This document shows, in pieces, positions 813 to 31,893 of a stretch of DNA of 31,893 bases. Every line of letters starts with the position of its first letter. The stretch's first letter is position 1. The stretch comes from a virus. The stretch spans positions 1-31,893 of IMG/VR virus record IMGVR_UViG_3300031972_000892. The stretch is one strand, 5' to 3'. Under the pieces are notes generated by a model. The model saw only the letters and a list, made by a program, of their open reading frames with translations. It did not search any database and was not told the origin of the DNA. A program made the position numbers and the translations under genes.

Positions 813-2311
813 TATCTAAATCTCCTAGATGATTTTAATGGATGTGCGGTCGTAATAGGTTTGTGCTTAGCGGGACGCTTCTTAAGTACCATTCTGTCCC
901 AATCACTCTTCGGTGTCTGTACACTTTGTAAACCACGTAGTGCCAGAGCATAAGCAATACACCGATCATCGTGGTAGTTGTTTCCATCAGGGTGGTGTGG
1001 TGCCCTACCCTTGTCATCAATCACGAGGTTTCTCATCTCGCTGAATGTAATGGAATCTATGTTCTCTATAATTCTTTCTTGTATCGAAGACTTAAACATA
1101 TCATAAAGTTTAATCTTACTCTTCTGCGTGGTAGTAAACGGAGAGTAGTTAGAGAAACCAAACCCATCAAAGATTTCTTTAACTGCTGCCCCGTGGTTGT
1201 TAAGTTCAAAAGTCACTGGTGCCCTGTAGGCTCTAGCGATTTGGATAACCTCTTCGCTGAATGCCTTAATAGATAATTGATTGGAACTGATGATTGCTAC
1301 TGGGCTATACGAAATCTTGTCTAGAACGTAAGCAACCGAGAAATCTCTTCCGACACCGGATGCAGGATCAAAACCCACACTGTAACGATTCCGATCATTA
1401 TAGGGTTGAAGAACAACCCGTAGTTTATTTTGTACATTAATAACTTCCAAAGGATCCAGATCTTCATGACTAAAGAAGTTCTGATCATCAAGACTATATG
1501 CCTCTTCCAAGGTTGCCGGGTACTCTCGGCGGAAGAGACTTTCTGATTTGATTTCTTCAAGTTTACACCGTCGCCAATAGATCTGCTCATCAGTAAGATT
1601 GTACAGATTCTGTAGCGTTTCTTCATTAGAATAAAATGTCAACCCGCCTTTTGGTAGTTCCTTCCTGTAATCTGGAAAGGTAAACCAAGGCATCATGATC
1701 ACTTCCCATGAATCATTATACTGTGCGTCCATTGCAATCTGGTGTAGAGCATCACCCCAGTAGTTGGGGGTACTTTCTATTACAACGTTGGCATCATTAG
1801 CAGATGCTAGCAAGGATGCTAATACTTCATCAGCCTTATCATAGAAGGCAAACTCTGATAGATGCGCACCGTTAAATGTATACCCTCTGTCCGTAGCGTC
1901 TGACTGTGCCGAGAAGGCACCTAGAGAGGCTCCTGTGGCTTCGAAGGTTATCTCATCCCTCTTAATAGTAGAAGCCCGTCTAAGGGGCTTAGGAAGCGTA
2001 TTAAGAAATCTCTTGTCTATGTCAAGCAACTCTGTAGCAGAACGCAACTTGTTAGACATAACAGCAAACTTTAAAGGATCTGATGCACAGTAAGCCCGCC
2101 AAAAGAAGTAGGACCTACAAAGGGTAGACGAACCAAGTTGCCGTGCCTTAACAACAGCAACCCTTTTGTTATTTTCTAATGCCTCAAGCAATCTAACTTG
2201 CTCTGGATTGATAACGTGGCCAAAGGTTTTCAACTTCGCGTTCTTATCTTTAATCTTAAGACGCGGGATGAACTCATGTGGGTCTAGTATAATGTCACTT
2301 AGGTTCGACAT
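812..2311 (-). CDS. terL: Terminase large subunit (packaging ATPase/nuclease)
   Basis: The 499-residue motor cuts concatemeric DNA and pumps it into the prohead through the portal. The ATPase domain has a deviant Walker A at residues 53-63 (VVKARQLGSST), an acidic Walker B-like stretch SEFAF at 152-156 and the coupling motif ESTPNY at 179-184. The RNase H-like nuclease domain shows D315 (GFDPASG), E369 (TFELNNHG) and the HDDR cluster near 447-450. The length is normal for the family. The start has AAGGA six bases upstream and overlaps the preceding small gene by 17 nt. The stop overlaps the portal ATG (TAATG), suggesting translational coupling. The subfamily, and so the headful or site-specific cutting mode, cannot be told by eye. 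Confidence 0.95.
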   Translation of the reverse strand: MSNLSDIILDPHEFIPRLKIKDKNAKLKTFGHVINPEQVRLLEALENNKRVAVVKARQLGSSTLCRSYFFWRAYCASDPLKFAVMSNKLRSATELLDIDKRFLNTLPKPLRRASTIKRDEITFEATGASLGAFSAQSDATDRGYTFNGAHLSEFAFYDKADEVLASLLASANDANVVIESTPNYWGDALHQIAMDAQYNDSWEVIMMPWFTFPDYRKELPKGGLTFYSNEETLQNLYNLTDEQIYWRRCKLEEIKSESLFRREYPATLEEAYSLDDQNFFSHEDLDPLEVINVQNKLRVVLQPYNDRNRYSVGFDPASGVGRDFSVAYVLDKISYSPVAIISSNQLSIKAFSEEVIQIARAYRAPVTFELNNHGAAVKEIFDGFGFSNYSPFTTTQKSKIKLYDMFKSSIQERIIENIDSITFSEMRNLVIDDKGRAPHHPDGNNYHDDRCIAYALALRGLQSVQTPKSDWDRMVLKKRPAKHKPITTAHPLKSSRRFR

Positions 2312-2552
2312 TGGGGTCCTTCTTCTTTACAGAGACCAGCCACTCATCGACTGGAGAAGAACCATCCTCACCTACCACCGTTAGACCACGATATAAAACA
2401 AGTAGTGAGATTAGGTCTTGAGGCTTGAACCCTTTAAAGTCATCCTCGGCAAACTTAGATGTGACATCGTATATCAAACATCTAACTGCTTCTGCTATAT
2501 CACCACTTTCAAGAGCCTTGAGGCCCTTTGTTATTTTCTTTCTTCGTGCCAT
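2295..2552 (-). CDS. Small protein before TerL, candidate small terminase
   Basis: 85 residues with a basic N-terminus (MARRKKITKG), a probable helical body and a polar C-terminus. I do not recognise a family. The position immediately upstream of terL, with a 17-nt overlap, is where the small terminase subunit often lies. That protein recognises packaging sites and stimulates TerL. No convincing helix-turn-helix can be read, and 85 residues is short for TerS, so the role is a positional guess. The ribosome binding site is weak (GGA in CCGGATGGAACA). The alternative is an early host-takeover protein in the same leftward operon. Confidence 0.65.
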   Translation of the reverse strand: MARRKKITKGLKALESGDIAEAVRCLIYDVTSKFAEDDFKGFKPQDLISLLVLYRGLTVVGEDGSSPVDEWLVSVKKKDPNVEPK

Positions 2553-2614
2553 TGTTCCATCCGGTGTTATTCTTTTTCCATAAAGGTATTCTAGGAAATC
2601 TCTATGGGAGAAGG

Positions 2615-2812
2615 CTAATCTTCTGGTTCGCTATTAATAGGAAGATTTGTCAATACTTCCTCAAGAGAAGGGGGGGAACACCTGTTCATTAACCTTTGTA
2701 GGTAGCGTTCGATGTTCCCCCCTGTGACTGCCCTGCGTGCGACACGTTCGAGGTTTCTTCTCTCTTTGTTTTTCTTATGATACTTCTTATGATCTTTATT
2801 GTAAGTGCTCAA
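2615..2812 (-). CDS. Small basic protein, unknown function
   Basis: 65 residues beginning at a TTG codon (2812-2810) inside the end of the sigma-like gene, with GAGGAA about ten bases upstream. No ATG is available in the N-terminal part. The N-terminal half is very basic and His/Lys-rich (KDHKKYHKKNKERRNLER), and the C-terminal half is acidic. The basic start vaguely resembles the front part of phage HNH-type proteins, but no HNH catalytic motif follows, so at most it would be a remnant. It lies in the leftward operon between the sigma-like gene and the TerL-proximal genes. The coding call rests on packing and frame openness. A small DNA-binding or terminase-accessory role is possible. Confidence 0.5.
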   Translation of the reverse strand: MSTYNKDHKKYHKKNKERRNLERVARRAVTGGNIERYLQRLMNRCSPPSLEEVLTNLPINSEPED

Positions 2813-3203
2813 CCTTAATGTTTCCTCGCAACTTCTTTAGTGCCTTTGCATAGCACTTGCGAACAGATTCATGTGAGCAGTTCTCTAAGCCTGCAACGTA
2901 GCGAAGGGAAGCATCGTCCTCTGCAATCGCTAAGAATACTCTCATCTCTTTCTCTGTAAGCAAACCTTCTATCTCATCCAAGAGATTATTATATCTTTTA
3001 TGACTGTCTTCTCTTTCAATGTATGTGGCTTCGGGACTAGGGAAAGAGTTAAGCCAACTGTCATTAGCAGAGATATACCTAACATAATCATACATCTCTA
3101 AGTTTACAACTTCTTGATATGTCTCGGCCTGCTCTAGTTTATCTGAATATGTTTGCCTCACAGGTCTCATAGTCTTGCTACCGTACTTTCTTTTGCTCAT
3201 CAT
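2796..3203 (-). CDS. Sigma region 4-like HTH regulator
   Basis: 135 residues from the tandem ATGATG at 3203 (MMSKRKYGSK). This start is preferred over an upstream one at 3254 because AGGAGACC lies just ahead of it and the upstream ATG would lie almost at the predicted transcription start. The C-terminal third (about residues 85-130) reads like sigma-70 region 4: LLTEKEMRVFLAI, then a second helix, then SHESVRKCYAKALKKLR, the typical recognition-helix pattern. No region 2 is visible. It is the first gene of the leftward operon that runs through terL and portal, behind a good sigma-70-type promoter with an inverted repeat at the start site. Likely role: redirecting or co-activating host RNA polymerase for phage genes. 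A plain HTH repressor is the alternative. Confidence 0.75.
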   Translation of the reverse strand: MMSKRKYGSKTMRPVRQTYSDKLEQAETYQEVVNLEMYDYVRYISANDSWLNSFPSPEATYIEREDSHKRYNNLLDEIEGLLTEKEMRVFLAIAEDDASLRYVAGLENCSHESVRKCYAKALKKLRGNIKVEHLQ

Positions 3204-21400: not shown

Positions 21401-21871
21401 TTAACTGAAGATACCAAACACAAACACGTCAGCCTTGTCACTCGCAGGAGCCTCAAGGGTCTGCGCCACCGGAGGAACTAAATCATTAGTACCAGCCGCT
21501 TGGCATCGACCAGCAGTCCCCGAAGGAACCACCGCCACACCAGCACCCGCTGCATCAGCAACGTTAGCGCCTTCGGCGTAGCCTTTGATAACAACTTCGC
21601 AGAGGTCATCAGCAGCAGCGTCTGTACCCGTTCCGTCATGACCGATCATAACACCGATCGCAACTTTGGAACCAGCACCACCAGAGTTTGACTTCTGGAT
21701 TTTAACAACCCGGTCAGACCCAGTGACGGATACGTCAGCAACCTGAAACGCAACGAAGTCACCGATAGCAATAGCACCAGTGGCGAAGAAGCGCTCAGTC
21801 ACACGACGGTTGGAAGGACCAACATCCGTACCCGGAGCATCAAGGTATTGAATCATAGATGAAGTAGCCAT
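21401..21871 (-). CDS. Putative capsid decoration protein
   Basis: 156 residues from MATSSMIQYLDAPG. This start, not an upstream one at 21925 within the capsid gene, has GGGGAGA seven bases ahead and overlaps the capsid stop as TAATG. The sequence is Gly/Ala/Val-rich and strand-like (AIAIGDFVAFQVADVSVTGS; KVAIGVMIGHDGTGTDAAAD; CEVVIKGYAEGANVADAAGA), the style of small head decoration proteins that trim the capsid surface. Tight coupling with the capsid gene and placement before the terminator predict high, near-stoichiometric expression. The family is not certain. Confidence 0.75.
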   Translation of the reverse strand: MATSSMIQYLDAPGTDVGPSNRRVTERFFATGAIAIGDFVAFQVADVSVTGSDRVVKIQKSNSGGAGSKVAIGVMIGHDGTGTDAAADDLCEVVIKGYAEGANVADAAGAGVAVVPSGTAGRCQAAGTNDLVPPVAQTLEAPASDKADVFVFGIFS

Positions 21872-22920
21872 TAGAATGTCTCCCCGTTTACAAGCAATGC
21901 GCTTGAGCCAAGATGTGAAGCACACAGACCACCCATGAACAAGATGCGACCATAACGTCCATCATAACCTGAGATGTCCTCGAAGCCGGTGAACTTAAAG
22001 TCAGCGTCTCCATGAACGTGCAGGTAGATAGCGTCAAGGTTAAGCATGGCCATCGTGTTGGAACCAGCAGAGCCAGCACCAGCAGCGACATCCATCGCTC
22101 GCTCAGGCATGATCACGCCAGACGAGAACTGAAGGCTCTGAACACCAGAGGCATCAAGAGTCTTCGCATCAACATAACGCTCTTGCGCAAACAGCGCTTG
22201 ACGATAGTTGACATACCCGTTGGGCGAAGCAAGGGTCAGGTGGAAACGACCACCGTCACCGTCGGCAGGCATAAGCGTAGAAGCCTTGGCTTCCAACTCA
22301 TACATGGCACCAATACCGTTAGCCGAGAAGTCGTTCCCCGCATTGGCGAACTGGTTCTGGAGACCAACAGCAAGACCGTGGGAAAGACCACCCATCGTGT
22401 TGCCCTGCGAAGCAGGAGCAGCATCCTCAAGGAAGCCAGTCGACACGCCTTGTCCAGCCGTGTTACCGTTAATCGTACCAAGCGTAGCAAGGTCGGTCAC
22501 AGTGTTACCAACAATCTGTTGGTTAATCTTACGCATCAGCGCAGACAGTGCGTTTTTATATCGGACCTCAGCAAGGTCAATAATGGCACGCTCGCCAGAG
22601 TTCTCAGCCTCTTCACGACCTGAAATAAGAACAGGCATCGCCAGACGCATCCAGTCATACTCAGCCTGCTGGGTAGCATCACGGACACTAAGGTCCAGTG
22701 CTTCCCAACCGCTTGAGAGAACCGTTAACTGCGAGTGCTCTTGCGTTTCCACAGGAACAACCAACTTGTAGCCGCCATCGAAGGTGCGGATCTTACCAAG
22801 TTTCTTGGAGATACTGAGGAAAGGAGTCGTCTCAAAGAGCGCCTCGCTGACCTCATCCTCAATCTCAAAAATAGTCGTGGAGAGAATATCATTACTAATT
22901 CCAGTCAATGTGATAGACAT
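21871..22920 (-). CDS. Major capsid protein (HK97-fold likely)
   Basis: 349 residues from the ATG at 22920 (MSITLTGISNDILSTTIFEI). A TTG three codons upstream is possible but less likely. The protein has the features of a podovirus capsid: a helical start, a glycine-rich stretch (GNTMGGLSHGLAVGLQNQFA), a long middle helix (YKNALSALMRKINQQIVGNT) and strand segments such as RFHLTLASPNGYVNYRQALF. Codon choice looks more GC-rich than the neighbours, as for a highly expressed gene. AAAGGA precedes the start. It heads a capsid-decoration pair ended by a terminator, with a 189-base upstream regulatory gap. Confidence 0.9.
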   Translation of the reverse strand: MSITLTGISNDILSTTIFEIEDEVSEALFETTPFLSISKKLGKIRTFDGGYKLVVPVETQEHSQLTVLSSGWEALDLSVRDATQQAEYDWMRLAMPVLISGREEAENSGERAIIDLAEVRYKNALSALMRKINQQIVGNTVTDLATLGTINGNTAGQGVSTGFLEDAAPASQGNTMGGLSHGLAVGLQNQFANAGNDFSANGIGAMYELEAKASTLMPADGDGGRFHLTLASPNGYVNYRQALFAQERYVDAKTLDASGVQSLQFSSGVIMPERAMDVAAGAGSAGSNTMAMLNLDAIYLHVHGDADFKFTGFEDISGYDGRYGRILFMGGLCASHLGSSALLVNGETF

Positions 22921-23109
22921 GATTTTCAATCCTTTATTAAAGTTTAAGTTTCTATTATTAAATGTTTAACGCTTATCCATACGACTACTGAGGGTTGTTT
23001 CAGGTGGATGGTCTGAAGTCCTATTTATTCGTGCCGTCTTGAGACTGTAGATAAGTTATCCTATGTGGGTCAAACCTACTGCTTCATATAATATAATACT
23101 TTGTCAACC
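22921..23109 (-). promoter_or_regulatory. Long leader/promoter region of the capsid gene
   Basis: 189 bases without a gene. It contains an AT-rich block (23090-23101) next to a TTGACA on the minus strand (23107-23102) that lacks a correctly spaced -10 box. It also has a dyad GTGGGT-caa-ACCTAC (23065-23079) and a GATAA-g-TTATC palindrome overlapping GTAGATAA (23047-23058). These look like operators of a regulated late promoter, perhaps one needing a phage sigma-like protein. The exact start is not readable. Confidence 0.4.
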
Positions 23110-23919
23110 TTACAAGACATTAAGTATTGCATCGTTAATTCTTTGTGTAGCAATATCATAATATTTCTTTTCCAATTCGATTCCGATAAAGTTTCGACTT
23201 GTATTTACTGCGGCGACCCCGGTGGAGCCAGCACCCATACAGTTATCTAAAACTGTATGTCCTTCGTTTGAATATGTTTTAATTAAATACTCTAAAAGCG
23301 TGACGGGCTTTTGGGTTGGATGAACTGTATTTTTCTCCGCAGGAAACTCTAGTATTTCTGCCGGATAGTTAGTCCACTTCTGTTCGTATTCTGACTCTCC
23401 CAAAAGTTTGTTTCCAGAACCGATAAACTTCTCAACTCCCAACACTTTTCCTAGACGCTTCCTATTGTTTTTCTTTTTCACCACTTTAGGAACGAGTCCT
23501 TGGGGGTTATAAAGCATATTACTGTCGTTTTTGGCGGAAGCCGCCGCTGCACCTCTTTGCGAGAAAACCAAAATATCTTCAGTCTGTTTCATGGGGCGGT
23601 AGTTAGCCAGCAGAAATCCTGTGGTTCGCTGTTTCTTCCATATCCATTCATATTTGAACCAATCGACCTTCGACATAATAAGAGAACTTGTAAATGGCTG
23701 GTCGCCAAACAATACAACTGTCCCTTCAGGCTTCAGAACTCTCTCGTAATTCTGCCAAAGTTTGTCCAAAGGAAGAGGGCTATCCCACTTAAATATCCTA
23801 CTGCCTTTTTTGCCCCGACGATCTGTTGTTCCGTAAGGCAAGTCACACAAAATCAAATCGACTGAACTTTCTTGGATTTCGCTCATTATTTCTAGGCAAT
23901 CGCCATGTCGTAAAATCAT
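23110..23919 (-). CDS. DNA methyltransferase, beta class (N6-adenine or N4-cytosine)
   Basis: 269 residues transferring a methyl group from AdoMet to the exocyclic amine of a DNA base. Motif order is that of the beta class: catalytic DLPY at residues 26-29, target-recognition region in the middle, HPTQKP near 200, and the AdoMet pocket DNCMGAGSTG at 225-234. Length is typical and all key motifs are present, so it should be active. AAGGAGA lies eight bases before the ATG. It sits just upstream of the capsid leader in the same direction, with no restriction endonuclease beside it. It is likely to be for protection against host restriction, for regulation, or both. Specificity cannot be read. 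Confidence 0.92.
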   Translation of the reverse strand: MILRHGDCLEIMSEIQESSVDLILCDLPYGTTDRRGKKGSRIFKWDSPLPLDKLWQNYERVLKPEGTVVLFGDQPFTSSLIMSKVDWFKYEWIWKKQRTTGFLLANYRPMKQTEDILVFSQRGAAAASAKNDSNMLYNPQGLVPKVVKKKNNRKRLGKVLGVEKFIGSGNKLLGESEYEQKWTNYPAEILEFPAEKNTVHPTQKPVTLLEYLIKTYSNEGHTVLDNCMGAGSTGVAAVNTSRNFIGIELEKKYYDIATQRINDAILNVL

Positions 23920-25217: not shown

Positions 25218-25376
25218 ATGTCGTTTAGCAATAGAGAAATAAAGAAGTTCATAAGTATCCAAACCCGGTCTCGTCTACCGTATCCAACAGACAAACTTAA
25301 CAATAGGAGTAATAGAGATGACAACTGTACAAGCAAAGAGGTGCCCAAAGTGCGGCACATTAAAAGAAGTAAGTAA
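25218..25376 (+). CDS. Possible 52-residue protein
   Basis: An open frame beginning MSFSNREIKKFISIQTRSRL, with GGAGGGG a few bases before the ATG. It overlaps the zinc-ribbon/GIY-YIG gene by 59 nt in another frame, and the overlapping part is Arg/Lys/Asn-rich without a pattern. The good ribosome binding site is the only positive evidence. It may be a short leader whose translation couples to the nuclease gene, or not a gene. Confidence 0.3.
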   Translation: MSFSNREIKKFISIQTRSRLPYPTDKLNNRSNRDDNCTSKEVPKVRHIKRSK

Positions 25377-25776
25377 CTTTAGCAAGCATTGCCGTAGTGC
25401 TGATGGCCTTCAGGGCTACTGCAAACCATGTGCTAGCACGAAGTCTAAGCAATGGTATAGGGAGAACCGCCAAGTTGACCCCTATGTATATAAGGTTACC
25501 TGCCCAGACCACAAGTATTATTATGGGTCCTCGATGATTCATCTTGATGATCGCATGCGATTGCACTTTAGCAACCAACGTTCCTGTAGCCTTGCCCAGC
25601 ATGTAACAGGATCAGGCTGGACTGCTGAAGACTTAGACATTTATGTTATAGGTACAGGCGACCTTAACAGCGTAAGGTATCAAGAAGCAATGCTTATCCA
25701 AAGCAATCTGGATAATGAGAAGTGCTTGAACATAAAAGGCCCTGATAGAAAATGGATTCCCAATGTATCCGATTGA
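25318..25776 (+). CDS. Zinc-ribbon plus GIY-YIG-like endonuclease
   Basis: 152 residues. Cysteines 9, 12, 35 and 38 (CPKC...CKPC) form a zinc-ribbon of the kind at the N-terminus of phage HNH/endonuclease VII proteins. Residues 56-72 (YVYKVTCPDHKYYYGSS) are a degenerate GIY-YIG pair, followed by R79/R81, E123 and N138, which fit the expected catalytic Arg, Glu and Asn. AGGAG lies eight bases before the ATG. This is a free-standing, homing-type nuclease that may spread itself or cut competitor or host DNA. It sits in the rightward accessory island. No intron is visible around it. Confidence 0.85.
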   Translation: MTTVQAKRCPKCGTLKEVSNFSKHCRSADGLQGYCKPCASTKSKQWYRENRQVDPYVYKVTCPDHKYYYGSSMIHLDDRMRLHFSNQRSCSLAQHVTGSGWTAEDLDIYVIGTGDLNSVRYQEAMLIQSNLDNEKCLNIKGPDRKWIPNVSD

Positions 25777-25960: not shown

Positions 25961-26212
25961 ATGAAAGATAATATTAAAACACCCTTAGCCGGGTCATTAG
26001 GAGACAAGTATGAAGATGAACTTAGAGTTAATTATGATAACAGTGTTGTTAGCGATGGGAACAGTAATGTGTTCTTTGCCACACCAACAGTTCCAGACGG
26101 AGCCACCGGTTGTGACTGCAAAGGAAACGGCACTCCAGCAGATCCAAACGGACCTTGCACTAATGCGTGTTCGAATAGATCAACTGGAGCAAAGGATAGA
26201 ACAGAAGATTAA
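25961..26212 (+). CDS. Possible 83-residue protein overlapping the next gene
   Basis: It has a very good ribosome binding site (AGGAG, six bases before the ATG) and opens MKDNIKTPLAGSLGDKYEDE. Its last four fifths lie in the same DNA as the gene at 26010, in another frame. That part is Gly/Asn/Cys-rich without obvious structure, with four cysteines. Either it is a true nested gene, or its start serves mainly as a leader for translation into 26010. I favour the second reading. Confidence 0.35.
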   Translation: MKDNIKTPLAGSLGDKYEDELRVNYDNSVVSDGNSNVFFATPTVPDGATGCDCKGNGTPADPNGPCTNACSNRSTGAKDRTED

Positions 26213-26216
26213 CTAG
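26010..26216 (+). CDS. Exported or membrane-anchored coiled-coil protein
   Basis: 68 residues. Residues ~4-22 (NLELIMITVLLAMGTVMCSL) are a hydrophobic signal or anchor segment with a cysteine at its end, though not a good lipobox. The remainder is a polar linker and an amphipathic helix with heptad spacing (QIQTDLALMRVRIDQLEQRI). This is the layout of small spanin-like or envelope proteins. AGGAGA lies five bases before the ATG. It ends eight bases inside the convergent methyltransferase gene. A lysis (spanin) role is possible but unsupported by a partner. Confidence 0.6.
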   Translation: MKMNLELIMITVLLAMGTVMCSLPHQQFQTEPPVVTAKETALQQIQTDLALMRVRIDQLEQRIEQKIN

Positions 26217-27387
26217 ACTTCAACTGAACAGTTTTGACAGTGCTCCTTGGAAGCAAGCAGTTCTTAAGAGCCCGCTGTGAAAAGATATATCTCTTTCCTT
26301 GCTTGAACCCCATTGAACCCCAGTCTAAACTGTTCAGTTGAACAACTATATTTTCCAAGCGTTCTTTATCCCAGTTTTCTTTTGGGATTATTGCCAAGAC
26401 TGATCCATCATAGTTTGTACAGTCATGCAAGAAGAATGGATTATCTTTCCTTGTCTTGCAGTTAACATAGATTCTTGGCTTGTCTGAACTGTATTGCTCC
26501 CTGCCCCATCTCCACCAGTTACCTTCATTGAACTTCTTAATCTTACGATTCATTAAGTCCTTCTTGTTTTCTCTGATGTAGTCATCTACCTTGTCATGGT
26601 AATATGTTTTGGTGTGACCAGTCGTGCGCGTAAAAGAACAAACAAACTCCTCATTACCGTCTGGATGGGCGAAGATTTTATCCATACCAGAAACACCTCC
26701 CACCTTTACATCAAAGTAATCTCCTAGTGATATGGCATTATCATACTCAATAAAACTAATCAATCCATCCTTACACGTAAATGTCTTGCTGCCTTTGTCA
26801 GTGATGGTGCTCCTTGAGTAATCATCTTTTTGAAACCTCCAGATAGCCACAGTAGGCGAGAAGCCCTTAAACACTTTCTGATCACTATAATCATAAAAAT
26901 GAGTTATGGTGCCCTGCTCGTAAAGAAGGGTATTCAATTTCTTAGATGAGGTTTGCTTTAAGAAATCAATGGGAGTAATAAATATAATCTCTCCACCATC
27001 CTCTAGCAACTGCAAACACTTCTCAATAAAGAAGATGTACAGGTTAGTCTTCTTGCTTCGTGAAGGATACAACTCAGATAAGATTGATTTTGTACTATCA
27101 AAGATATCTTTGTACCCAACATATGGTGGGTTACCAATGATGGTATCATACTTTTTATCCTCATCAAAGACGAAGAAGTCTTCATTTACGACATCGGCTG
27201 GGCACCATGTGGGATCAATCTCGACGCCTGTGGAGTCTGCTTCATCTTTGATGTGCTGCCAGAATGCGCCGGCACCCACCGAAGGTTCTAAAATAGAACC
27301 TTTGTTCTGTCTCAGATCTAACATCTTCAAGACAAATGAATCAGGAGTAAACACCTGACCCAAAGTATCAACATTATGCTTATTCAT
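26209..27387 (-). CDS. N6-adenine DNA methyltransferase, gamma class, intact
   Basis: 392 residues. GQVFTP at 10-15, AdoMet pocket LEPSVGAG at 33-40 and catalytic NPPY at 86-89 are in the standard gamma order, followed by a target-recognition region of about 250 residues (for example VKVGGVSGMDKIFA). All key motifs are present, so it should methylate adenine in DNA. The start overlaps the preceding gene as ATGA, making it the third gene of a coupled methyltransferase trio. No endonuclease domain is visible in this protein or next to it. The target sequence cannot be inferred. Confidence 0.92.
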   Translation of the reverse strand: MNKHNVDTLGQVFTPDSFVLKMLDLRQNKGSILEPSVGAGAFWQHIKDEADSTGVEIDPTWCPADVVNEDFFVFDEDKKYDTIIGNPPYVGYKDIFDSTKSILSELYPSRSKKTNLYIFFIEKCLQLLEDGGEIIFITPIDFLKQTSSKKLNTLLYEQGTITHFYDYSDQKVFKGFSPTVAIWRFQKDDYSRSTITDKGSKTFTCKDGLISFIEYDNAISLGDYFDVKVGGVSGMDKIFAHPDGNEEFVCSFTRTTGHTKTYYHDKVDDYIRENKKDLMNRKIKKFNEGNWWRWGREQYSSDKPRIYVNCKTRKDNPFFLHDCTNYDGSVLAIIPKENWDKERLENIVVQLNSLDWGSMGFKQGKRYIFSQRALKNCLLPRSTVKTVQLKSS

Positions 27388-27839
27388 TCTGACAGTGTTC
27401 CTTTATTCTTTTCTCTAAATGCTTTTAGCTCTTTTGATGGTTTGAGAGAAAAGATATCTTCCGGAGCAAACTTTAAAGCATCGCCAAGGCGAATGTTCTG
27501 AGCAACCGCTTTTTCATAAAGCCTGATCCTCCAGGTGCTCTTCTCTTCACCTGATACCTCGAAGGCAGTATCAACCATGCGCTTCCTGCAATCCGCTACA
27601 TTGTCCGGCATTATGTCTACTCCGTAAGTTGTCATGAGAGCCTGGTATGCGGTGCATCCGTTCTTCATCTTTCGTTTTATGACCTCAACCAAGATGTTGC
27701 CATTGCCACACGCCGGATCAACAAAGGTCTTTCCGGGCGTACTAAAAGACGATTTGTCTATTTTGTCAAGCATTTGATTCACTAACCACGAGGGGGTAAA
27801 AACTTCACCATGCGTATTGGAGCGCTCCTTGTTACGCAT
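27384..27839 (-). CDS. AdoMet-binding half of a split N6-adenine methyltransferase
   Basis: 151 residues. It begins like gamma-class enzymes (GEVFTP at 11-16; DPACGNGN motif I at 41-48; GVDIMPDN motif II; NIRLGDAL like motif III near 113-120) and then ends with a Lys-rich tail, with no NPPY. The missing catalytic part begins the gene just upstream (27839-28762). The ATG overlaps that gene's stop as TAATG, and its own stop overlaps the next methyltransferase. The two halves could therefore be made together and assemble. Alternatively this is a remnant. Confidence 0.85.
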   Translation of the reverse strand: MRNKERSNTHGEVFTPSWLVNQMLDKIDKSSFSTPGKTFVDPACGNGNILVEVIKRKMKNGCTAYQALMTTYGVDIMPDNVADCRKRMVDTAFEVSGEEKSTWRIRLYEKAVAQNIRLGDALKFAPEDIFSLKPSKELKAFREKNKGTLSE

Positions 27840-28762
27840 TACCCAACCTGTTCGTTGATATAAGCTACTTCTTCTTCTGTAAGACTAAACTTATGAGCAA
27901 GCTTTTCGTCATCCCATGCTTCATCAAATGAAACAAGTGGAATGTAGCGATAAGCAGCAGAAAGCAAATCTTGCTTTGTTTTTCCACACTTCATAAGAAA
28001 ACGATAAAGGTTAGTATTAAAGTAAGTTTGATAGTTTTGACACTCAACTTCAGAGTCAAAAGCATAATGCCCATAGCTTTCTGATACTACTTCAGTTGGC
28101 TTTGCAATAAAACTATAACTAGTATAGTCATTGCCTTTACCATCAGCGGCTCGATGAACTACCTTCCACTTTAAAAAGTTAGGTCGGTTTTCTACAATAC
28201 TCTTAAGAATATACTTTTCAAAGCCTTTTCTTCTGGAAACAAAACATTTTACGGTGTCTTTTTGATTAGTATCAAGAAATCTTTTATCGTTAGTCTTTAC
28301 TTTAAAATAGCTTTTAGCAGCAAAAATTGTATTAAGACTTTCAGACAAAGAAACTTTGTCTAAAATAGACTCTGCAATAATGCTACGGCTATTAAGAATT
28401 CTTGCGTCGTTAACAGCAAGATCAGTATAGTCATGCAAAAAACTAACATAGGTTGGACCAGTGTAGTTTTTATCAAGAACGACAAAAGATACTCCACCCT
28501 TTACCGAAACTCCGTTTCCAAAAACAGCATCGTTATCTGTATGCCAAATGTAACGAAGACCTTGATCTGAAGCAATAAGCCAGTCGCGATAAGACTCTAG
28601 ATTCTTTTTTCCAAACCAGCGACTTGGAGTAAGAGCGATAGTTACATCAGAGTTATCTACCCCCCATTTTACAAAGTCAGGATAAATATCTTTTGCAGTA
28701 GGATTATCTGCATTGTACCGCATTTGATAAGGTGGGTTTTGAATACATACATCAAACTTCAT
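27839..28762 (-). CDS. Catalytic (NPPY) and target-recognition half of a split methyltransferase
   Basis: 307 residues beginning MKFDVCIQNPPYQ: the catalytic motif IV (NPPY, residues 9-12) lies right at the N-terminus, preceded only by its beta strand. The rest is a target-recognition region, ending in YRYIPLVSFDEAWDDEKLAH and LTEEEVAYINEQVG, which resembles the C-terminal end of Eco57I-type methyltransferases. There is no AdoMet motif I; that is encoded by the next gene. AAGGAGG six bases before the ATG is one of the strongest ribosome binding sites in the window, arguing against a decaying fragment. Together the two genes contain all parts of one enzyme, in reversed order. Confidence 0.85.
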   Translation of the reverse strand: MKFDVCIQNPPYQMRYNADNPTAKDIYPDFVKWGVDNSDVTIALTPSRWFGKKNLESYRDWLIASDQGLRYIWHTDNDAVFGNGVSVKGGVSFVVLDKNYTGPTYVSFLHDYTDLAVNDARILNSRSIIAESILDKVSLSESLNTIFAAKSYFKVKTNDKRFLDTNQKDTVKCFVSRRKGFEKYILKSIVENRPNFLKWKVVHRAADGKGNDYTSYSFIAKPTEVVSESYGHYAFDSEVECQNYQTYFNTNLYRFLMKCGKTKQDLLSAAYRYIPLVSFDEAWDDEKLAHKFSLTEEEVAYINEQVG

Positions 28763-28781
28763 GTTAAGCCTCCTTGGTTAT

Positions 28782-28973
28782 TCATTCTGACCTCTTCTGA
28801 TAACCATCACGATACCAACCCTCCCCCTTCAGCGCAAAACTGGAGGGGGAGACTTTCTTTTTGGTACCGGACTTACAGAAAGGACAGGGAGGTGGAGGGT
28901 CTTCGTACCTCTGCATCACCTCTACCTCGCCCTCACAGCATTCATTTAAACACCGAAACTCATAGATAGGCAT
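28782..28973 (-). CDS. FmdB-family zinc-ribbon protein
   Basis: 63 residues. The MPIYEFRC opening, cysteines 8, 12/13, 30 and 33 (CPFC), a KKVSPSSFALKG segment and the ending GWYRDGYQKR are the signature of FmdB-like small zinc ribbons. Members have been called regulatory, but their action is unproven; phage copies are common. The ATG overlaps the scaffold stop as TAATG, so it is translated with the head genes, and it precedes the methyltransferase trio. It may assist head assembly or bind nucleic acid. Confidence 0.85.
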   Translation of the reverse strand: MPIYEFRCLNECCEGEVEVMQRYEDPPPPCPFCKSGTKKKVSPSSFALKGEGWYRDGYQKRSE

Positions 28974-30329: not shown

Positions 30330-30824
30330 TTAAAAGTCGTCTATGGTTTTAGTGTACTCACCATCAAGTGCAGGTTTAGCAGGACAATACTCCTCCCAGA
30401 ACCTCTCCTGATCTTTTATGTCTTTACATGCCTTGGCTCCCTCCCAGTAAGCATCTGCTCGGTCATCAAGGTATTTCTCATACTTCATTGCTTTTTCATT
30501 GTGATCTTCCAAGTAATACTTGGGCATATCATCCAACGGAACTACACCTCTTGCTTTACAAATTGCATCTCGCTCTTCGTAAGAGTTGTAGCGTACCCCC
30601 AATCCCCGGTCAAAGAAACCGTTGATTCCCCACTTACCAGTTCCCCCGGCCCCCCACTTGTCGGGGGTACGAGCAATAAGATTGACCCGTCGTCTTATCG
30701 CAATCGCACCGGTAAGCGCACCCTTTAACTGATCTGGAACCTCGGAGGCCTTGAAGATTTCTTCTATGGTCTCGCCCGAAGGAAGGCCATCCGGTCCTAG
30801 TATATCGTATACATACAGTGGCAT
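30330..30824 (-). CDS. Head-operon protein with FmdB-like start lacking cysteines
   Basis: 164 residues. The opening MPLYVYDILGPDGLPSGETI followed by EEIFKASEVPD has the strand layout of FmdB-type proteins but none of the zinc-binding cysteines. The middle contains WGINGFFDRGLGVRYNSYEE, and the C-terminal part is a charged helix. Its ATG overlaps the portal stop (TAATG), so it is coupled to portal synthesis. It may have evolved from a zinc ribbon into a structural or assembly protein. The relationship is a by-eye impression. Confidence 0.7.
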   Translation of the reverse strand: MPLYVYDILGPDGLPSGETIEEIFKASEVPDQLKGALTGAIAIRRRVNLIARTPDKWGAGGTGKWGINGFFDRGLGVRYNSYEERDAICKARGVVPLDDMPKYYLEDHNEKAMKYEKYLDDRADAYWEGAKACKDIKDQERFWEEYCPAKPALDGEYTKTIDDF

Positions 30825-31893
30825 TACTCACCAAGCCCCTGTGTTATAATGTCCATACCTGCTCCACGGATGGCTGCTGCCTCCGTTCCACCTCCAACGG
30901 GTATTGCGTCGGGACTATCTGATGGAGGAGCAAGAGGAGCCTGCTGGGCTCCCTGACCACCACCCGGTGCTGTAGGCATTGGGGGTGCTTCCTCTGGCAT
31001 AAAGTCTTCGGGCAGGTTGTGAAGTCTAATAAGTTCTTCCAAGATCTTGCGAGGCTCAACACCCAACTGAACAAGAACAGGAAGCAACTCTGTAATAGAT
31101 TGCTTCTTGATAGCAGCAGACAAAGGAGTAGAGGACTGGTCAGCGGCAGCATATTTAAACTTACCTCTGAAGTCTTCCTCGGTCAGAACCTTAACGTTGC
31201 CATCAATATAAACCATTTCTTTAGAGTGATCATCAGGCTTGGTCATCAGCAGATGCTGGAACATACTTACATAAATCTGACAGATGATCTCAAGAGACCG
31301 ATCACGGGACCTTGCTAGTTTGCCAATCTCTGAAGCAGAGTATTGGGTAAGAGCAGCAATCTCTGTAGCAGATGCATTGGTAGCCTGACCTCTGGTAAAG
31401 GGAGCAAGGATAGAACCACGGTCCAGATCCTGTCTAACCTCGGCCTTGTAGATGCTGTAGTCAGGAGAGAATGTATTAGCAATCAAAGGAACGATAGCAG
31501 TACGAGCATCAGAATCAGGAGGCAAGTCCATCTCCACAATAGACTGGTCACGGTTCTCTGCGAGTATGGCTTTTGCTTCTTCATCTAAAGTCCCCTTTCT
31601 GGTTACATAGACACGAGCATCACGGCGCAGACCGTTAGCCCAGACAGTCCGTAAGTTATTAACTTCCCACAACTGGTCGTAGATTAGACCCAATCTAGAG
31701 AAACCCTTGAGAGGATACTGCGGATCATATGCGAGATACATAGGAGCAATAGGAGCACAGGGCTCACCATCGGCCTTACGGAAAGGAATCTGTGGAGCCT
31801 TCTCAATCACACCATCCTTGCTGTCGTAGTTGGGAGAATAAAAGATTAACTCGTCGTTGATATGGTCATACAGTTCGTAGATCTCAACATACT
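30824..31893 (-). CDS. Portal protein, C-terminal part (runs off the right edge)
   Basis: The reading frame enters from base 31893 (VEIYELYDHINDELIF...) and ends at the TAA at 30826-30824. An internal methionine at 31810 is not the start. The stretch 31728-31893 repeats codons also present at bases 1-166. The unique part contributes about 300 residues, including a long helical region (ATEIAALTQYSASEIGKLAR) typical of portal stem and wing helices, and a Pro/Gly/Ala-rich C-terminal tail (APGGGQGAQQAPLAPPSDSP). Together with the piece at 1-812 it makes one 571-residue portal. The stop overlaps the next gene as TAATG. Confidence 0.85.
   Translation of the reverse strand, partial: YVEIYELYDHINDELIFYSPNYDSKDGVIEKAPQIPFRKADGEPCAPIAPMYLAYDPQYPLKGFSRLGLIYDQLWEVNNLRTVWANGLRRDARVYVTRKGTLDEEAKAILAENRDQSIVEMDLPPDSDARTAIVPLIANTFSPDYSIYKAEVRQDLDRGSILAPFTRGQATNASATEIAALTQYSASEIGKLARSRDRSLEIICQIYVSMFQHLLMTKPDDHSKEMVYIDGNVKVLTEEDFRGKFKYAAADQSSTPLSAAIKKQSITELLPVLVQLGVEPRKILEELIRLHNLPEDFMPEEAPPMPTAPGGGQGAQQAPLAPPSDSPDAIPVGGGTEAAAIRGAGMDIITQGLGE
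31728..31893. repeat. Right copy of the 166-bp end overlap
   Basis: Direct-repeat partner of bases 1-166. Relative to the left copy the portal has Glu for Thr, Cys for Ser and His for Leu, plus one silent change, which looks like strain variation between phages whose reads built the two ends. Confidence 0.9.

Follow-up and report, generated by a model that had tools for sequence, protein, structure and literature searches.

Can two neighboring phage genes, one opening at the catalytic motif of a DNA methyltransferase and the other ending just short of it, encode a single enzyme whose halves stand in swapped order? This question arises in a window of 31,893 bases that is a complete virus record, with phage genes such as those for a large terminase and a major head protein (Table 1). 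Downstream of genes for a scaffold-like and a zinc-ribbon protein, the window holds three overlapping minus-strand genes, here called A, B, and C. A first-pass annotation had read A and B as one methyltransferase with exchanged halves, and at the sequence level this description is accurate: both frames are intact, A running from motif IV onward and B covering motifs X to III. Elsewhere in the window, positions 25318-25776 (plus strand) encode a protein of 152 aa that opens like a zinc finger and includes a GIY-YIG domain; it may be a homing-type endonuclease. Positions 23110-23919 (minus strand) encode a stand-alone methyltransferase of the phrog_67 type. With A-B counted as one, three different methyltransferases (A-B, gene C, and 23110-23919) share this 32-kb record. 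Rfam and tRNA scans of the window gave no match.

Table 1. Coordinates of genes, motifs, and junction features in the window
Feature	Position	Strand	Details
Large terminase	812-2311	minus	phage gene
Major head protein	21871-22929	minus	phage gene
Gene C	26209-27387	minus	392 aa; complete gamma-type Type II methyltransferase
Direct repeat, copy 1	27377-27393	plus	B/C junction; 14 bp exact, 17 bp with one mismatch
Gene B	27384-27839	minus	151 aa; open reading frame with motifs X, I, II, III
Motif III, GDAL	27474-27485	minus	gene B residues 119-122; sequence, alignments
Motif I, DPACGNGN	27696-27719	minus	gene B residues 41-48; sequence
Motif X, GEVFTP	27792-27809	minus	gene B residues 11-16; sequence
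TAATG stop/start overlap of A and B	27837-27841	minus	sequence
Gene A	27839-28762	minus	307 aa; open reading frame with motif IV onward, target-recognition region, C terminus
Motif IV, NPPY	28727-28738	minus	gene A residues 9-12; sequence
Ribosome-binding site of gene A, AAGGAGG	28769-28775	minus	six bases before ATG; sequence
Direct repeat, copy 2	28775-28791	plus	just upstream of A; 14 bp exact, 17 bp with one mismatch
Portal-like protein	30824-31891	minus	phage gene

The gene A protein opens at motif IV (first residues MKFDVCIQNPPY). It does begin near NPPY, as first described, but it starts directly with the beta strand, and NPPY follows after eight residues; the start is not five residues ahead of the strand. 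NPP is invariant across 51 relatives of gene A. The protein aligns with the middle to the end of the Pfam Eco57I model (positions 73-171 of 171; 3.3e-7) and matches phrog_3689, and its match to PADLOC MTase_II PDLC03375 begins at model position 10; an NCBIfam search found no family. No AdoMet motifs are present in A, and a hidden motif I cannot precede it, because the frame is closed by an in-frame TAA 18 nt upstream. The closest relatives of A, at 33% identity, are the catalytic parts of larger KSG-type chains, which retain a degenerate AdoMet domain and sit downstream of their B-like gene.

The gene B protein opens MRNKERSNTHGEVFTP, carries the motif X and motif I to III sequences that the first-pass annotation had pointed out, and contains no NPPY. 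It ends shortly past motif III, which places the break, as proposed, between the GDAL of B and the motif IV start of A. In an alignment of 16 diverse AdoMet halves, the E, F, and T of motif X and the GxGN of motif I are invariant. Gene B matches positions 20-94 of the 311 in Pfam N6_Mtase (6.3e-6) as well as phrog_21201, phrog_11371, and phrog_4376, while NCBIfam returned fragmentary matches far below cutoff. Genes A and B occupy different reading frames, and the strong ribosome-binding site, the TAATG overlap, and the intact frames were all recovered; the overlap would allow translational coupling of the pair. We also agree that a single frameshift can be ruled out, and with it a simple assembly break, on the basis of the swapped order, the coupled overlapping frames, and the recurrence of the layout in other viruses. 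Gene C overlaps the stop of gene B as ATGA and is part of the same operon, outside the split enzyme. It matches PADLOC PDLC03282 with 391 bits over positions 2-383 and Pfam Eco57I at 4.6e-24; as a complete gamma type with a full-length family match, it has no need of gene B.

Single-sequence scans of viral contigs with A or B alone found no match, and a profile was needed. We scanned viral contigs with an AdoMet-half profile and bacterial genomes with a second one, each time taking the best 80 loci of more. In a search-selected and partly redundant set of 100 viral AdoMet halves, the window counted in, the catalytic half lies directly before the AdoMet half in about 48 loci (13 fused, the rest separate) and behind it in about 24; no partner was detected for 21, and 7 lie near a contig end. 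The same order thus occurs in dozens of other loci, and the impression that a swapped-order split would be unusual in phages has to be given up in favor of a recurring family that makes up about half of these 100 loci. Separate pairs in this order include those of S-CAM7, PSD9, phi-ST2, Ah1, Lak-B4, L024, L092, L097, and others (L numbers denote loci). Strictly minimal pairs, in which the catalytic gene starts at motif IV as in the window, include L024, L036, L038, L092, L097, and L099; L012, L022, L027, and L093 among the "minimal" cases are fragments. Other catalytic genes have extra N-terminal parts, namely degenerate Rossmann stretches, GIY-YIG domains, or helicases. Same-order fusions are found in Aeh1p090, L025, L026, L028, L034, L050, L091, and L101-104. 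The 383-residue phrog_11371 model matches the C-terminal part of A at 179-251 and B at 283-364, so a swapped-order fused protein already exists in Aeh1p090 and its Aeromonas phage relatives. Databases label this split family piecemeal, as "DNA methyltransferase" or "hypothetical."

Several other arrangements were encountered among these loci. In the KSG/KTG group, a large one that spans many bacterial phyla as well as phages (L105-L184, from bacterial genomes, and L002, L003, L030-L049, and L080-L086), an AdoMet half with intact motif I lies just upstream of a methyltransferase of ∼510 to 560 aa whose own motif I reads DPxxKSGVF/KTG, as if the small protein stood in for the degenerate cofactor domain of the large chain. 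In L021 (151-3492), L037 (1-3492), and L010 (2476-3975), GIY-YIG domains (MUG113 or LEM-3-like), ResIII helicase domains, or both precede the catalytic half in one fused chain, and the AdoMet half is a separate downstream gene; these look like restriction-modification proteins with the methylase split off. Nearly identical 198-aa AdoMet halves occur in prophages (L055, L061, L062, L064, L065, L067-L069, L073, and L075), repeated within contigs of one genome, and no catalytic partner was detected near them, a check that extended to two whole records. Klebsiella phage KpV477 (L012, 1520-3005) has its catalytic half in two frames and an intact AdoMet half, possibly a decayed case.

On trees of the two halves, which rest on short, divergent sequences and have moderate support, gene order changes just three times per tree and same-order fusions appear in at least two places on each. 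When the trees are built on the loci with both halves, the N-first group is a single clade (99) for either half. The two types of half also tile a complete enzyme. On L058, a natural single-chain relative of 378 aa in normal order, the alignments of B-type halves start at residues 1-7 and stop between 93 and 122, and the minimal catalytic halves have their first residue opposite residue 113. Profiles of the halves cover separate, colinear parts of M.BseCI, an enzyme of solved structure (7-91 and 128-225).

Purifying selection acts on the two halves alike in those related pairs that were tested (dN/dS 0.06-0.26), these being relatives of a window pair that has no close relative of its own. For the AdoMet and catalytic halves, respectively, dN/dS was 0.07 and 0.06 in L092/L097, 0.085 and 0.26 in L036/L038, and 0.14 and 0.075 in cyanophage ACG-2014f, and the Aeromonas fusions gave 0.07-0.17. 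The halves of ACG-2014f are ∼100 kb apart, the AdoMet half at about 36 kb and a catalytic half of the minimal type at about 137 kb. Both are present in 26 of 26 records, which represent one phage group with some duplicate accessions and hence not 26 independent events. Together with the same-order fusions and the tiling, selection in relatives and this co-occurrence argue for the two-subunit enzyme that the first-pass annotation had proposed.

Structure prediction gave a compatible picture. An AlphaFold2 model of gene A built with 50 relatives (pLDDT 82.2, pTM 0.74) matched CamA (1.6e-9), M.TaqI (1.7e-7), BrxX (2e-7), and M.BseCI (1.2e-6), all gamma-type adenine-N6 enzymes. When A was modeled alone, its first 12 residues, with the motif IV segment, were weak (pLDDT ∼62) and formed no proper strand, whereas residues 3-8 of the fused relative L025 form a strand (block mean pLDDT 86). 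The difference agrees with a beta-4 strand dependent on the partner half, although different proteins and alignments are being compared. The L025 model is itself moderate (pLDDT 73.9, pTM 0.56, 10 alignment rows). It matches M.TaqI (2.9e-6), and beta-class CcrM only at E 0.14.

We conclude that A and B are very probably the subunits of one functional DNA adenine-N6 methyltransferase, best read as one that combines a gamma-like sequence with a beta-like gene order. This conclusion draws on sequence and comparison, namely, the motif partition, the intact overlapping genes, the recurrence, the fusions, the tiling, and selection in relatives. We infer a physical A-B complex, its activity, an anti-restriction role, and, from NPPY and the matches to M.TaqI, CamA, M.BseCI, and BrxX, an m6A product. 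B, with motifs X and I-III, would form the half of the Rossmann domain that binds AdoMet, and A would contribute everything in this domain from strand beta-4/NPPY onward, together with the target-recognition region. Docking of B on the exposed beta-4 strand of A would bring the cofactor beside the NPPY pocket, and the complex would methylate adenine at a site read by A. The beta-class-like A-B order is conserved, and some lineages have fused the halves in that order. In the phage, the enzyme probably marks the phage's own DNA against host restriction; the two further methyltransferases of the record (gene C and the phrog_67 type at 23110-23919) make self-protection the likeliest role.

With the biochemistry unchanged, A-B might instead be a remnant of defense, the methylating part of what was a split restriction-modification system and has lost its nuclease. 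Relatives that combine GIY-YIG, helicase, and methyltransferase parts lend this some substance, since a catalytic half is fused to MUG113 (GIY-YIG) and ResIII in L021, to ResIII in L037, and to GIY-YIG alone in PSD9, and NatCom_35866 has T5orf172 and ResIII adjoining. However, neither a nuclease nor a helicase lies beside A-B in the window, and the two additional stand-alone methyltransferases fit self-protection better; we regard a defense remnant as unlikely. It is considerably less likely that the halves act apart, with B serving gene C or a host KSG-type methyltransferase and A being noncatalytic or otherwise partnered. B-like halves do stand alone in prophages and, in many bacteria, are found upstream of larger methyltransferases whose motif I is of the KSG/KTG kind, but gene C carries the whole set of motifs itself and matches its family completely, A has neither AdoMet motifs nor anything upstream that could provide them, and the fused or coupled A-B arrangements and the perfect co-occurrence in ACG-2014f indicate that A and B belong with each other. 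Pairing of each half with other partners, which the first-pass annotation had counted against its own proposal, was indeed observed and qualifies the two-subunit reading without refuting it. Least probable of all is chance retention of A and B as debris of one or two complete methyltransferases, for although the KpV477 catalytic half is in two frames, orphan B-like halves exist, and the third-position GC of A and B differs, all motifs are intact in both genes, the ribosome-binding site and overlapping start/stop are in place, one frameshift cannot swap the order, the same partition is found in many phages with dN/dS of 0.06-0.26 in the pairs tested, and same-order fusions have arisen repeatedly. 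Decay, likewise anticipated as a counterindication, is thus not the rule among relatives, with KpV477 as the case in point where it may have occurred.

A 14-bp exact direct repeat, TTATTCATTCTGAC, is found at both gene junctions and brackets exactly A-B, suggesting that the pair was acquired, or could be lost, as a whole, although shuffling the whole window 100 times gave two matches with up to two mismatches in 3 cases. Gene A has 24.7% GC at third positions and gene B 48.0%, a contrast between neighbors in one operon that may point to partly separate histories. The tree places gene A beside the KSG group as its sister (97), and the gene B data allow the same placement (p-AU 0.42, unrejected). 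An exchange of partners in the window, with A and B of different lineages, is possible, the B data being compatible with a common placement.

A tentative extension, to which we give a minority chance, is that the AdoMet half is shared and exchangeable, with a single B-type protein serving several catalytic and recognition subunits and phages altering methylation specificity through C-halves that they gain or swap. ACG-2014f isolate Syn7803C34 (L189, KJ019159.1) carries two catalytic halves in tandem (1492-2238 and 2228-3133; 248 and 301 aa, 28% identical) and a single AdoMet half ∼100 kb away. This isolate, the contrasting codon composition of A and B, and the KSG/KTG bacterial group are hints of such sharing. 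The idea resembles the modular logic of Type I M and S subunits and differs from it in that the division lies inside the catalytic Rossmann fold.

A few cytosine-C5 enzymes are known as natural two-polypeptide DNA methyltransferases. Here many phages apparently have an adenine enzyme cut midway through its catalytic fold, and permuted, with separate, fused, and unlinked forms. How amino-methyltransferases were permuted from gamma to beta has long been debated, and these forms offer natural intermediates for that step as well as ready-made split methyltransferases for engineering. For annotation, "hypothetical" genes of 130 to 160 aa in T4-like, cyano-, Lak, and gut phages probably encode cofactor subunits.

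How does A-B compare with known systems? Permuted motif orders define the amino-methyltransferase classes, and motif IV is DPPY/SPPY in the beta class (PMC2890505). A-B has the NPPY and sequence of the gamma class, its significant profile and fold matches being gamma or HsdM type, but in place of the gamma order X-I-II-III-IV-TRD it presents IV-TRD and then X-I-II-III on two chains. Its gene order is that of the beta class (IV-VIII, TRD, X, I-III), within one chain in fused relatives; true beta-class membership is ruled out by motif IV (NPPY) and fold (CcrM, E 0.14). Both proteins match amino-methyltransferase families and no C5 family. A-B belongs with the phage split/permuted family (phrog_11371, 3689, 4376, 21201), defined by a catalytic half that starts from or near motif IV and has the AdoMet half after it, either fused or as its own chain.

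Within that family, Aeh1p090 (phrog_11371, "unknown function") has the same succession of motif IV-TRD and motif X-I-III, but as one fused 415-aa chain of an Aeromonas phage with ∼32 to 36% identity to B in the AdoMet half. Cyanophage S-CAM7 gp056/gp057 (348 and 133 aa; compare phrog_3689 and phrog_4376), annotated "DNA methyltransferase" and "hypothetical protein," are separate genes in the same order with overlapping ends; unlike A, the catalytic gene retains a short degenerate Rossmann stretch before NPPY. KSG/KTG pairs likewise set a B-like half with intact motif I beside an A-related catalytic chain, but the AdoMet half is upstream and the large chain keeps the degenerate AdoMet domain that A lacks. 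M.TaqI, M.BseCI, and CamA resemble both halves in sequence and fold and share NPPY, yet each is a single chain with the AdoMet half first, whereas CcrM shares the order catalytic-TRD-AdoMet in a single chain without a significant fold match. The open-access papers searched gave no account of an adenine methyltransferase that is both split and swapped. M.AquI, split in the variable region, and M.EcoHK31I, split by relocation of motif IX, are established two-polypeptide cytosine-C5 enzymes (PMC3404938); they are natural two-polypeptide DNA methyltransferases as A-B would be, but they are of the C5 family, and neither has its break between motifs III and IV. To judge from the open literature searched, a motif III/IV split in swapped gene order is a new variation on both two-polypeptide and permuted methyltransferases.
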